A stretch of DNA of 64,000 nt from Roseiflexus sp. RS-1 (GTDB taxonomy: Bacteria > Chloroflexota > Chloroflexia > Chloroflexales > Roseiflexaceae): NCBI RefSeq assembly GCF_000016665.1, contig NC_009523.1, positions 1,426,001 through 1,490,000 on the forward strand. Direction: 5' to 3'. Below the pieces are notes generated by a model, which did not search any database, was not told where the DNA came from, and saw only the letters and a list, made by a program, of their open reading frames with translations. This document shows, in pieces, positions 41,652 through 46,862 of the stretch (positions are counted from its first letter, which is position 1; each line of letters starts with the position of its first letter). Both the position numbers and the translations under genes were made by a program.

Positions 41652-41864
41652 TCAATCTTCTTCCTCAATCCATTCAAGCGCGTAGATGATCCCGCCGTGC
41701 CTGATCCGGCTGACGAGCGGGTGAAGCGGTGCATCGTCGGCAGCGCGACGGTAGATGTAGCGGGTATTCGTTTCGTGCTCGATGAGCAGGTAATCGCCGT
41801 GGTTCAGGATCGTCGGATCGCTGCCGTTGACTACCGTTTCGTCACAGCCGTACACGTCGTCCAT
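41652..41864 (-). CDS. Hypothetical small protein downstream of nif cluster
   Basis: From the ATG at 41864 (AAGGA nine bases upstream) a 70-residue product reads MDDVYGCDETVVNGSDPTIL and ends in an acidic GIIYALEWIEEED. A longer start at 41951 is possible but has a weak ribosome-binding site. The composition is acidic, compact and protein-like, with no known motif. It follows nifK on the same strand after about 190 bases containing a hairpin, so it may or may not be in the nif transcript. Confidence 0.5.
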   Translation of the reverse strand: MDDVYGCDETVVNGSDPTILNHGDYLLIEHETNTRYIYRRAADDAPLHPLVSRIRHGGIIYALEWIEEED

Positions 41865-42053: not shown

Positions 42054-43481
42054 CTATCCGTGCGCCGTCGTGCCGTTGCGCAGCGCAATTGGAACCGAAG
42101 TCGGTCCCTCGACGCCGGTTTCGATCAGGGTGTTGCTCACGATGGTCGTTGCGCGGCGCTCAAAGATCGTGTTGGTGATCTCATCGACCAGCGCAATCGC
42201 ACCGTTGTAACCGACAATCGATCGTCGATGATGTCCGAAGCGGTCTTCAACCGGGAATCCAACCCGCACCAGCGGAATGTTCTCGGCTTCGGCGATGAAC
42301 CTGCCTTTCGAGTGCCCGATGAGCAGATCAACCGGTTGCTGCTTGATACGCTTGTGCAATTCGTGCAGATCACCCTTGAGAATGATCTCGCTCTCAACCC
42401 CCAGTTCTCCCGTCAGTTCGACCATTCGTTCGCCCCAGGGACGATTGTCGGCAGCGGTCAGAATGTATGCCGGGGTCATACCCATTTCGGCGATCAGCCC
42501 GACCAACCCTTCGAGCAGGTCGGGATCGCCGTAGAGTGCGACCCGCAGTCCGGTAGTGTACATATGCGTATCGACCAGTGCATCGAGCAGGCGTGCCCGC
42601 TCGACTTCCAGCGATTCGGGGATCGTATGGTCGGTGATCTCGATCAGCGTGTTGACGAAAGCATCGGTATTCTTCAGCCCGATGGGCATGGTCAACACAT
42701 GGGCGGGCACGTTGTAGCGTCGTTCGTAGATGCGCGCCGCTTCGCCGCCAACGTGGCGCTGGAGCGCAATCGTTGCCAGCGATTTCGAGGAGCTGCGCAG
42801 TTCCTCGATGGTCGTGCCGCCGCGCGGAACATGGGGACGCGGGTCGTAGTAGCCGCCGTCGAGGGTCTCTGAGTAGTCGGTGATCCACAGCCCGTGCAAC
42901 CCCATCTCCCGCAGCATATGCTTCAGTTCGCGGATGTCGCCGGGGTTGACCCAGCCGGGAATGATGTTGATCCTGCCGTTGGTCTCGCCTTTCTTCTTGC
43001 GGCGATCCGGGAGATTGAGGGCGATCTCTTTGAGAAAGTTGTCGAAGCCGGTCGTGTGATTGCCGATGTACGACGGAGTTTTGACCGAAAGGATCGGGAT
43101 TGTGACGTCCGGATGTTTGTCCAGAAACTCATCGATGATCGCAGGAATGTCGTCCCCGATCGTTTCTGAGAGACAGGTCGAACAGACCATGATCATGGTC
43201 GGGTGGAAGCGTTCCCAGATATTCTTGAGCGCCGCGAGCAGGTTCTGCTTGCCGCCGTAGACCGTTGTCTTTTCGGTGAGCGAGGTGGTGGCGACCTCAA
43301 CCGGCTCGCGGAAGTGACGTGACATCTGGTGACGCGGGTAGGTGGCGCATCCCTGGGAGCCGTGGTTGATGGTGATAGCGCCGTGAATGCCGTAATTGGC
43401 GAGCATTGCCCCGATTGGCGCGCAGGAACGGGTCGGGTTGATGGCAACGGCTCGTTCCTGAAGGGTCAGACAGCTGGTCAT
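42054..43481 (-). CDS. nifK: Nitrogenase beta chain (NifK-type)
   Basis: The 475-residue protein has the three P-cluster cysteines: Cys20 in INPTRSCAPIGA, Cys45 in HGSQGCATYPR and Cys103 in MVCSTCLSETIGDD. It continues with VKTPSYIGNHTTGFDNFLKE and IGHSKGRFIAEAENIPLVRV, as in NifK. It is shorter than typical molybdenum NifK because the N-terminal extension is missing, like the beta chains of alternative nitrogenases. With NifD it would form the alpha2beta2 catalytic component. Its ATG overlaps the nifD stop and GAGGAGG precedes it, so the two are co-translated. Confidence 0.93.
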   Translation of the reverse strand: MTSCLTLQERAVAINPTRSCAPIGAMLANYGIHGAITINHGSQGCATYPRHQMSRHFREPVEVATTSLTEKTTVYGGKQNLLAALKNIWERFHPTMIMVCSTCLSETIGDDIPAIIDEFLDKHPDVTIPILSVKTPSYIGNHTTGFDNFLKEIALNLPDRRKKKGETNGRINIIPGWVNPGDIRELKHMLREMGLHGLWITDYSETLDGGYYDPRPHVPRGGTTIEELRSSSKSLATIALQRHVGGEAARIYERRYNVPAHVLTMPIGLKNTDAFVNTLIEITDHTIPESLEVERARLLDALVDTHMYTTGLRVALYGDPDLLEGLVGLIAEMGMTPAYILTAADNRPWGERMVELTGELGVESEIILKGDLHELHKRIKQQPVDLLIGHSKGRFIAEAENIPLVRVGFPVEDRFGHHRRSIVGYNGAIALVDEITNTIFERRATTIVSNTLIETGVEGPTSVPIALRNGTTAHG

Positions 43482-44908
43482 GACTCCACCTCCTCAGATC
43501 CGTGGACTGCGTGGCGGGCGACGGGTGCAGGTCGGGCGTGCTGATGCACGATATTCCAGACCGGCGCATGCAGGGCTTTATCGATATCGCGCGCGAAGTT
43601 GACCATGCCCACAAAACCGGCGTAGGGTCCGGTGTCGTAGGTATGCCCATTGACGAACGGCACGCCCATTTTGTATGCCAGGTATCGCTCCTTGTTGCCT
43701 GAGATGAACAGGTCGGGACGGCGACGGGTCAGGATTTCTTCGATTTCGGGGACATTCGGGTTGTCGATAACCAGCGCGCCTTCGCCGATCTGGTTGAATA
43801 TCTTCTCGTAATCATCGGTATGCCCGAAGGTTGTGGCTGCCGTCTCGGTCTCCATGCCCAATTCGCGCAGGAGTTCGATCCAGTGCCAGACGCGCGGACC
43901 GCCCTGGTAGATGAAGACGCGCTTCCCCTGCAGGCGTTGACGATAGGCGTCGATGTAGGGTTGAATGCGCGCCACTTCTCGGGCGATCACTTCTTCGGCG
44001 CGCGCTTCAAGCCCGAAGAACGCGGCGGTGTCGCGCAGCGCTTTTGCCATGTTCTTCATGCCCCAGAGCGTGACATTGATGTACGGCGTGCCATACTTAT
44101 CCTTCATCATGTCGGCGATGTAGGTGGCGGATCGCTGGCAGTGCACGATATTGAGCGCCGCTTTGTGCATGATCTTCAGGTCGTCCACTGAGACGTTCCC
44201 GGTGAAGCGGGCGATGATCCGCAAGCCAAGCGCCTCGAAGAGATACTCGAAGGTGCGGATGTCATTCTTGATGTTGTAGTCGCCGATGATGTTGATCGAG
44301 CGGCTGAAATCGCCCTCCGGTTCGACCGAGCCGACCAGTTGACGAAAGATCGTCTCGTTGCCGACGTGGTGCCCCATCGACTGACTGACGCCACGAAACC
44401 CCTCGCACTCGAAGAACACCACCGGTTTGCCGATGATCGCTTCCGCCTGTTTGGCGACGTCGCGCCCGTCATCGCCGATCAGCGCCGTAGAGCAGGTGTT
44501 GTAGACGAACACCGCCTTCGCATTGGGAAACTCGGCATTGGCTTCGATGATCGACTGAAGCAGCTTTTTCTCGCCGCCGAAGACGATGTTGGTTTCGTTC
44601 ATATCGGTGACGAAGGTGTACTTCATGTGAAAATCGCTGTCGGCGAGGTGCGGACGGTAGCCCCAGGAGAAGAACGCGCACCCGATCGGTCCGTGGGTCA
44701 GTTGAATAGCGTCCTTGACCGGTCCGCCGACGACGCCGCGACAGCCGGCGTAGGTGCAGCCGCGCTCGGTCATATCGCCAGGCGTCGTTGCCACGTTGTT
44801 GGCAATGAAACAGGTGGTGCCATCGCCGCGCTGACACTTCCCGCCCGGTCCCTTGAGCGCGATATGGATCGCTCGCTCAGGCAGGGTCTGATTGCATTTG
44901 AACTGCAT
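43478..44908 (-). CDS. nifD: Nitrogenase alpha chain (NifD-type)
   Basis: The 476-residue protein carries P-cluster ligands Cys51 (ERGCTYAGCRG), Cys77 (HGPIGCAFFSW) and Cys139 (YNTCSTALIGDD). It has the cofactor ligands Cys257 (VHCQRSATYIADMM) and His422 (NGHTYDTGPYAG), and Gln176/His180 in FRGVSQSMGHH. The active site is therefore complete. Several blocks differ from classic molybdenum NifD: SWGYRP instead of SWGTRR, HMKYTFVTDMNETNIVFGGE resembling AnfD/VnfD, and three extra N-terminal cysteines (5, 25, 33). No delta subunit (anfG/vnfG) is nearby. The start at 44908 has AGGAG upstream and overlaps the nifB 3' end by about 30 bases. Confidence 0.92.
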   Translation of the reverse strand: MQFKCNQTLPERAIHIALKGPGGKCQRGDGTTCFIANNVATTPGDMTERGCTYAGCRGVVGGPVKDAIQLTHGPIGCAFFSWGYRPHLADSDFHMKYTFVTDMNETNIVFGGEKKLLQSIIEANAEFPNAKAVFVYNTCSTALIGDDGRDVAKQAEAIIGKPVVFFECEGFRGVSQSMGHHVGNETIFRQLVGSVEPEGDFSRSINIIGDYNIKNDIRTFEYLFEALGLRIIARFTGNVSVDDLKIMHKAALNIVHCQRSATYIADMMKDKYGTPYINVTLWGMKNMAKALRDTAAFFGLEARAEEVIAREVARIQPYIDAYRQRLQGKRVFIYQGGPRVWHWIELLRELGMETETAATTFGHTDDYEKIFNQIGEGALVIDNPNVPEIEEILTRRRPDLFISGNKERYLAYKMGVPFVNGHTYDTGPYAGFVGMVNFARDIDKALHAPVWNIVHQHARPAPVARHAVHGSEEVES

Positions 44909-45818
44909 CGCGTTGCTCCTTTCGCTGCGCCAGAAACTTCGGAATACAGACTCGTTCGCCCGCGCCGCACCCCTCCTCGCCCGGCACGCCGATAGCATCA
45001 GCGCGGCATCGCTGGCAGTTGCGAAACTGCTCGATGACCGTCGCGCATTCGTCGCGCACCCGATTGACCAGCGCGGGTGAAGGTTCCGGCAGGTGGGCGA
45101 ACTTTGCCAGGGGCATGAGCGGGATGATGTTCATGATGTACGCGCCGTGATCTTTGACCGTGCGCGCGACATCGATCAGGTGATGATCGTTGACGCCCGG
45201 TATCAGCACCGAATTGACCTTGACCGCCATCCCGCGCAGCGCCGCTTCACGCAGACCGGTCAGTTGATTGCGCAGAAGCAGCGTACACGCCTCACGCCCG
45301 CGATAGGTCTTGCCGCGATACCGCACGTGAGCGTATATCTGCTCAGCGATTGCCGGGTCAACTGCATTGATCGTGATAGTCAGCGTGGTAATGCCAGCCT
45401 GCTCGATGGCATCGATCTGATCCGGCAGCAGCAAGCCGTTGGTGGAGAGACAGCGGATCAGGTGCGGAAATTCGTCGCGTGCGCGCTCGAATGTGGTCAG
45501 TGTTGCATTGTTTGCCAGCGCATCGCCCGGACCGGCGACGCCAAGGACGCGCAGGCGCGGGTCGCGGGCGACCGCATGGCGCACAGTTTGCAGCGCCTCA
45601 TCGGGCGATACCACGCGCATCGTAACGCCGGGGCGATTTTCATTCGGGCAGGCATACCGGCGAATGCAGTAGTTGCACTGAATGTTGCAGCGCGGCGCCA
45701 CCGGAACGTGGATGCGTCCGAAGCGGAAATGCGCTGCGCGGCTGTAACATGGATGCGTGCTCAGGTCGATGTTGGGAAAACAGACGCCCTGACACGATCC
45801 GGCGGATGAAGCGTCCAT
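44877..45818 (-). CDS. nifB: Nitrogenase cofactor biosynthesis radical SAM protein NifB
   Basis: The 313-residue protein has HPCYSRAAHFRFGRIHVPVA followed by the radical SAM triad CNIQCNYC (Cys44, 48, 51). It ends with the further cysteine set NCQRCRADAIGVPGEEGC used for the iron-sulfur precursor clusters. NifB makes NifB-co, the carbide-containing core of the nitrogenase cofactor. The C-terminal NifX-like domain of many NifB proteins is absent. The start at 45818 is chosen because GGAGG lies five bases upstream. It lies between nifH and nifD, 27 bases after nifH, which is an unusual place for nifB. Confidence 0.94.
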   Translation of the reverse strand: MDASSAGSCQGVCFPNIDLSTHPCYSRAAHFRFGRIHVPVAPRCNIQCNYCIRRYACPNENRPGVTMRVVSPDEALQTVRHAVARDPRLRVLGVAGPGDALANNATLTTFERARDEFPHLIRCLSTNGLLLPDQIDAIEQAGITTLTITINAVDPAIAEQIYAHVRYRGKTYRGREACTLLLRNQLTGLREAALRGMAVKVNSVLIPGVNDHHLIDVARTVKDHGAYIMNIIPLMPLAKFAHLPEPSPALVNRVRDECATVIEQFRNCQRCRADAIGVPGEEGCGAGERVCIPKFLAQRKEQRDAVQMQSDPA

Positions 45819-45845
45819 GAGAGCCTCCATGACGCTGACGCGCCG

Positions 45846-46862
<1,017 letters not shown>

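Follow-up and report, generated by a model that had tools for sequence, protein, structure and literature searches.

Nif Group IV was defined on Roseiflexus castenholzii by Howard et al. in 2013 (PMC3760896) as a group without nifE and nifN whose alpha subunit is, among the Nif groups, the nearest to Anf/Vnf, and Roseiflexus had been set apart as group R by Dos Santos et al. in 2012 (PMC3464626). Paya-Tormo et al. (2024, PNAS; PMC11573651) used E. coli as the source of purified Roseiflexus RS-1 NifH, NifB, and NifDK and obtained active enzyme by combining them with molybdate, homocitrate, and SAM, without NifEN. The reconstituted NifDK produced 149 nmol NH3/min/mg with an NH3/H2 ratio of 1.22 (1.19 for the Azotobacter vinelandii enzyme). 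Replacing molybdate with vanadate or ferrous iron did not raise the activity, and tungstate was inhibitory. The authors concluded that NifDK acts as maturase as well as catalyst, FeMo-co being built on NifDK itself.

We analyzed a stretch of 64,000 nucleotides from Roseiflexus sp. RS-1 (termed the window), in which positions 43478 to 44908 almost certainly encode the NifD protein of this thermophilic, NifEN-independent Mo nitrogenase of Nif Group IV. We take the NifDK of Paya-Tormo et al. to be the same protein, as the gene order nifHBDK, the lack of NifEN, the numbering of R85 and H422, and the subunit sizes all match. No difference from their system was found, and a 70-aa gene behind nifK is absent from their paper. 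The central question raised by the sequence, namely which metal is used, was thus answered in 2024, and the mixed character of this NifD is a real but already known observation.

The nif locus and its genome

The nifD gene (43478 to 44908, minus strand) encodes a nitrogenase alpha subunit of 476 aa, assigned to Nif Group IV by NCBIfam models and our tree. Translation of the same interval on the plus strand is interrupted by in-frame stops; the earlier note had the coordinates right and named no strand. The other genes are also on the minus strand: nifK (42054 to 43481) for the beta subunit (475 aa; TIGR01286 E value of 6.2e-113, below the cut-off; PF00148, 432.5 bits), nifB (44877 to 45830) for the NifB-co-forming radical-SAM enzyme (317 aa; TIGR01290 E value of 3.5e-97; PF04055), and nifH (45846 to 46667) for the Fe protein (273 aa; TIGR01287, 446.5 bits, over the cut-off). 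nifD overlaps nifK by 4 bases and nifB by 32 bases. The order nifH-nifB-nifD-nifK is kept in the contigs of relatives, and NifH is 76 to 98% identical to its Chloroflexales counterparts.

The genome, a single contig of 5,801,598 bases, encodes six PF00148 proteins, namely, NifD, NifK, and two further pairs located around 2.37 and 4.11 Mb. Since a NifH-family gene adjoins each of these pairs, we take them to be BchYZ and BchNB, the two chlorophyll reductases. Neither NifE nor NifN was found in the genome, and a whole-genome search with TIGR01862 at 1e-40 matched NifD alone. Likewise, no homocitrate synthase NifV scored over the cut-off in this genome (G000), the best matches being 2-isopropylmalate synthase and citramalate synthase. 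The delta subunit AnfG/VnfG (PF03139), whose absence the earlier note had remarked on, is missing from the entire 5.8-Mb genome, and the same search recovered PF03139 in the Methanosarcina acetivorans control.

Metal ligands and N-terminal cysteines of NifD

NifD combines the PF00148 fold with a TIGR01862 score over the cut-off (554.6 bits), as expected of the alpha subunit of nitrogenase component 1. Alignment with the A. vinelandii protein showed that the cofactor ligands Cys275 and His442 correspond to Cys257 (44138 to 44140, minus strand; within C-Q-R-S) and His422 (43643 to 43645, minus strand) and that Gln176 and His180 are the counterparts of Gln191 and His195. The four residues are where the earlier note had numbered them, and the cofactor site is complete. 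The P-cluster ligands Cys62, Cys88, and Cys154 are represented by Cys51 (44756 to 44758, minus strand), Cys77, and Cys139, present in 29/29 of the Group IV proteins compared here (3 sequences made up the set of Howard et al.), among which the cofactor cysteine is invariant as well.

In Group III, four NifD genes from Bacillota (L068, L075, L076, and L078, in genomes G304, G389, G424, and G578) carry an in-frame TGA at the codon for A. vinelandii Cys62, which in their relatives is a cysteine codon (TGC or TGT). Howard et al. (PMC3760896) reported selenocysteine at this P-cluster site in three further species.

Three cysteines near the N terminus (Cys5, Cys25, and Cys33) had been described as added. 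All are at the positions given; Cys25 and Cys33 indeed belong to an insertion (KCQRGDGTTC; 44810 to 44836, minus strand) seen in the alignment of the Chloroflexales clade, but Cys5 (44894 to 44896, minus strand) is part of a C-x4-PER element also present in VnfD, in the majority of AnfD, and in almost every Group III protein of our set. That the three bind an extra metal cluster might be suggested by their frequency in the 29 Group IV proteins, where Cys5 is kept in 25 (Ser in 4), Cys25 in 27 (absent from L031 and L035), and Cys33 in 27 (absent from L026 and L030). We nevertheless find such a cluster highly improbable: each cysteine is lost or replaced in relatives whose protein is otherwise intact, Cys5 also occurs in Vnf, Anf, and Group III, and apo-NifDK contains ∼16 Fe per tetramer, a content already explained by two P-clusters (PMC11573651, Table 1), which leaves no evident room for a further one. 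Structure modeling, proposed in the earlier note for these cysteines, was carried out with AlphaFold (25 sequences; mean pLDDT of 75), and the model is weak in this region (N-terminal block means of 57 to 77, below 50 at residues 40 to 61), so that no geometry can be read from it. A cluster site at these cysteines is thus unsupported, and a required metal site is unlikely since some close relatives have lost or replaced them.

Phylogenetic position, diagnostic residues, and metal

The NCBIfam scores of NifD are split. Besides TIGR01862, the protein passes the "alternative" subfamily model TIGR01284 (524.6 bits), and it falls under all three equivalog cut-offs, with 466.8 bits for VNFD (cut-off, 823.1), 465.3 for nifD (TIGR01282), and 417.5 for ANFD (cut-off, 873.8). 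A tree of 54 alpha subunits, with NifE as the root, placed NifD from Roseiflexus and other Chloroflexales (Group IV) in a clade of their own (support of 100/100), separate from the canonical NifD clade (100/98) and the AnfD clade (100/100), and Groups III, IV, and Vnf/Anf joined at an unresolved fork. A single clade of Group IV with canonical NifD (Groups I and II) was rejected (p-AU of 0.013), and groupings of Group IV with Vnf/Anf (p-AU of 0.47) or with Group III (p-AU of 0.093) were not. The protein thus joins a complete cofactor site to a position outside the NifD, VnfD, and AnfD clades, as the earlier note had supposed. The phylogeny gave no placement within a characterized Mo, V, or Fe clade, which that note had named as evidence against its view, but Group IV itself has since been characterized by biochemistry.

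Over aligned columns, Roseiflexus NifD shares 50 to 56% identity with Group III, 43 to 45% with VnfD, 40 to 41% with AnfD, and 38 to 46% with NifD; its closest named relatives are from Roseiflexus MAGs (94 to 97%). The Group III or "uncharacterized" proteins (archaeal methanogens and Bacillota; structure 9spz) resemble it further in the C-x4-PER N terminus, TFGH/TFAH, GPRxWHW, and C-Q-R-S but form a separate clade, lack the Cys25/Cys33 insertion, and in some members have the TGA mentioned above. VnfD and AnfD (about 40 to 45% identity) share the N-terminal C-x4-PER and the W-H-W block and differ by their delta subunit and by the V/Fe diagnostic residues. Other Chloroflexota encode distant nitrogenase-like pairs (L049/L051 in G281; L046/L050 and L052/L053 in G270), 25 to 27% identical to Roseiflexus NifD and far under all equivalog cut-offs where scanned.

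The earlier note had judged three blocks (residues 94 to 111, 81 to 86, and 421 to 432, i.e., 18, 6, and 12 residues) closer to AnfD/VnfD than to Mo NifD. All three blocks are present, and the numbers of residues identical to Roseiflexus NifD in the 18-, 6-, and 12-residue blocks are 10, 1, and 8 for VnfD; 10, 1, and 7 for AnfD; 7, 2, and 6 for Klebsiella NifD; and 10 to 11, 3 to 4, and 9 for clostridial-type NifD. The judgment therefore holds against NifD of the Azotobacter/Klebsiella type but not against clostridial-type Mo NifD, which is as close or closer, and the "alternative" impression arose because the comparison was limited to the former. As a caution, an Azotobacter-type NifD as the only comparator makes any Group II to IV protein look "alternative." The likeness to VnfD/AnfD comes from common descent within the part of the tree where Groups III and IV lie together with Vnf and Anf and is no sign of V or Fe. 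This nearness has been in print since 2013 (PMC3760896), and the mixed sequence character is a known Group IV signature.

We then considered the residue positions proposed by McGlynn et al. (2013; PMC3578447) to separate Mo from V/Fe types. Roseiflexus NifD has Ala54 (position 65), Gly58 (position 69), Arg85 (position 96), Thr360 (position 380, not Lys), Arg408 (position 428, not Gly), and Cys-Gln-Arg-Ser at residues 257 to 260. All of these sites are Mo-like or "uncharacterized"-like and none is V/Fe-like, whereas Vnf/Anf have Cys65, Leu/His69, Lys96, Lys380, Gly428, and C-A-R-S. Howard et al. (PMC3760896) warned that residues in the vicinity of the cofactor tell the origin of a gene and do not prove its metal.

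Within Group IV, C-A-R-S, the motif of V and Fe-only types, occurs at the cofactor cysteine (residue 258, numbered as in Roseiflexus NifD) in 5/29 proteins (L022, L023, L025, L027, and L035), which bears out this caution. L022, L023, L026, and L030 have Ala at residue 337 in place of Gly.

The earlier view that the metal cannot be assigned has been overtaken, since Mo was measured for the Roseiflexus enzyme (PMC11573651) and the diagnostic residues are never V/Fe-like. We also weighed whether NifD could be an unclassified homologue acting on another substrate, such as a nitrogenase-like enzyme forming ethylene or methane. NifE and NifN are missing, deep-branching nitrogenase relatives have been linked to such reactions (PMC11573651), and, according to the same paper, growth of Roseiflexus on N2 is so far undemonstrated, N2 reduction being an in vitro observation. 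Even so, this reading has an extremely low probability, as the enzyme converts N2 to NH3 in vitro at the ratios of a Mo nitrogenase (PMC11573651) and NifD keeps every cofactor and P-cluster ligand. Least credible of all, a V or Fe-only nitrogenase that no longer has a delta subunit could invoke the passed NCBIfam "alt_nitrog_alph" model, the presence of VnfD and AnfD among the solved structures closest in sequence, and a sister position to Vnf/Anf that is not rejected, but it is refuted for the Roseiflexus protein by the Mo dependence of the published reconstitution (PMC11573651) and is contradicted by Arg85, Ala54, Gly58, Thr360, and Arg408 in place of the Lys, Cys, Leu/His, Lys, and Gly of Vnf/Anf, by a genome devoid of PF03139, and by VNFD and ANFD scores far under their cut-offs.

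As a NifEN-independent Mo nitrogenase, the Roseiflexus enzyme would be matured as follows. NifB would make the 8Fe-9S-C precursor, which NifDK itself would take up with NifH; on NifDK, one Fe would be swapped for Mo and homocitrate added, and N2 would be reduced at the resulting FeMo-co. Mo dependence, NifEN-free assembly, and in vitro N2 reduction come from experiment (PMC11573651), and our analysis contributes the clade, the diagnostic residues, the absence of the delta subunit and of NifE/N, and the conserved nifHBDK order. We infer that the same NifEN-free Mo route operates in the living cell and that Mo is used across the whole Chloroflexales clade.

A conserved small gene behind nifK

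A gene of 70 codons, termed orf70 (41652 to 41864, minus strand), lies directly behind nifK, starting 190 bases beyond it and preceded by a Shine-Dalgarno-like AAAGGA. Relatives of orf70 also lie behind nifK at further Group IV loci (32 to 90% identity) and align with invariant residues along their length. A profile added four Group IV loci (L022, L025, L026, and L027) but had no match at the Chloroheliaceae locus L031 and none in the related G281. Over 301 sampled genomes, the profile search detected orf70 in 8/9 Chloroflexota genomes with a Group IV nifD and in 0/292 others (Fisher P of 6e-15, a value that overstates the evidence since the genomes are related). A search of 299 Bacillota genomes for the same protein gave a single partial match (1.7e-4) with an internal stop, which we take as chance. 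orf70 had no convincing match in Pfam or NCBIfam, and its structural model, all-beta and of modest confidence (mean pLDDT of 72), had no Foldseek match in the PDB at an E value of 0.001 or better.

The operon was described as nifHBDK, with the 70-aa gene unmentioned and outside the reconstitution (PMC11573651). We conclude that orf70 is an undescribed gene that is conserved with Group IV nifD. A role in the assembly of nitrogenase is our guess from its position and co-occurrence. More specifically, and tentatively, its product might be an accessory protein dedicated to the Group IV nitrogenase, which lacks NifEN, e.g., a chaperone of the cofactor or of NifDK that partly replaces NifEN, NifX, or NafY, although we hold this to be less probable than its being something else. 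The in vitro reconstitution, performed without the orf70 product, reached about one fifth of the activity of the A. vinelandii enzyme (PMC11573651). nifHBDK alone is being proposed for transfer to crops, and orf70, a conserved small gene in the same operon, is a part of the locus worth a test.
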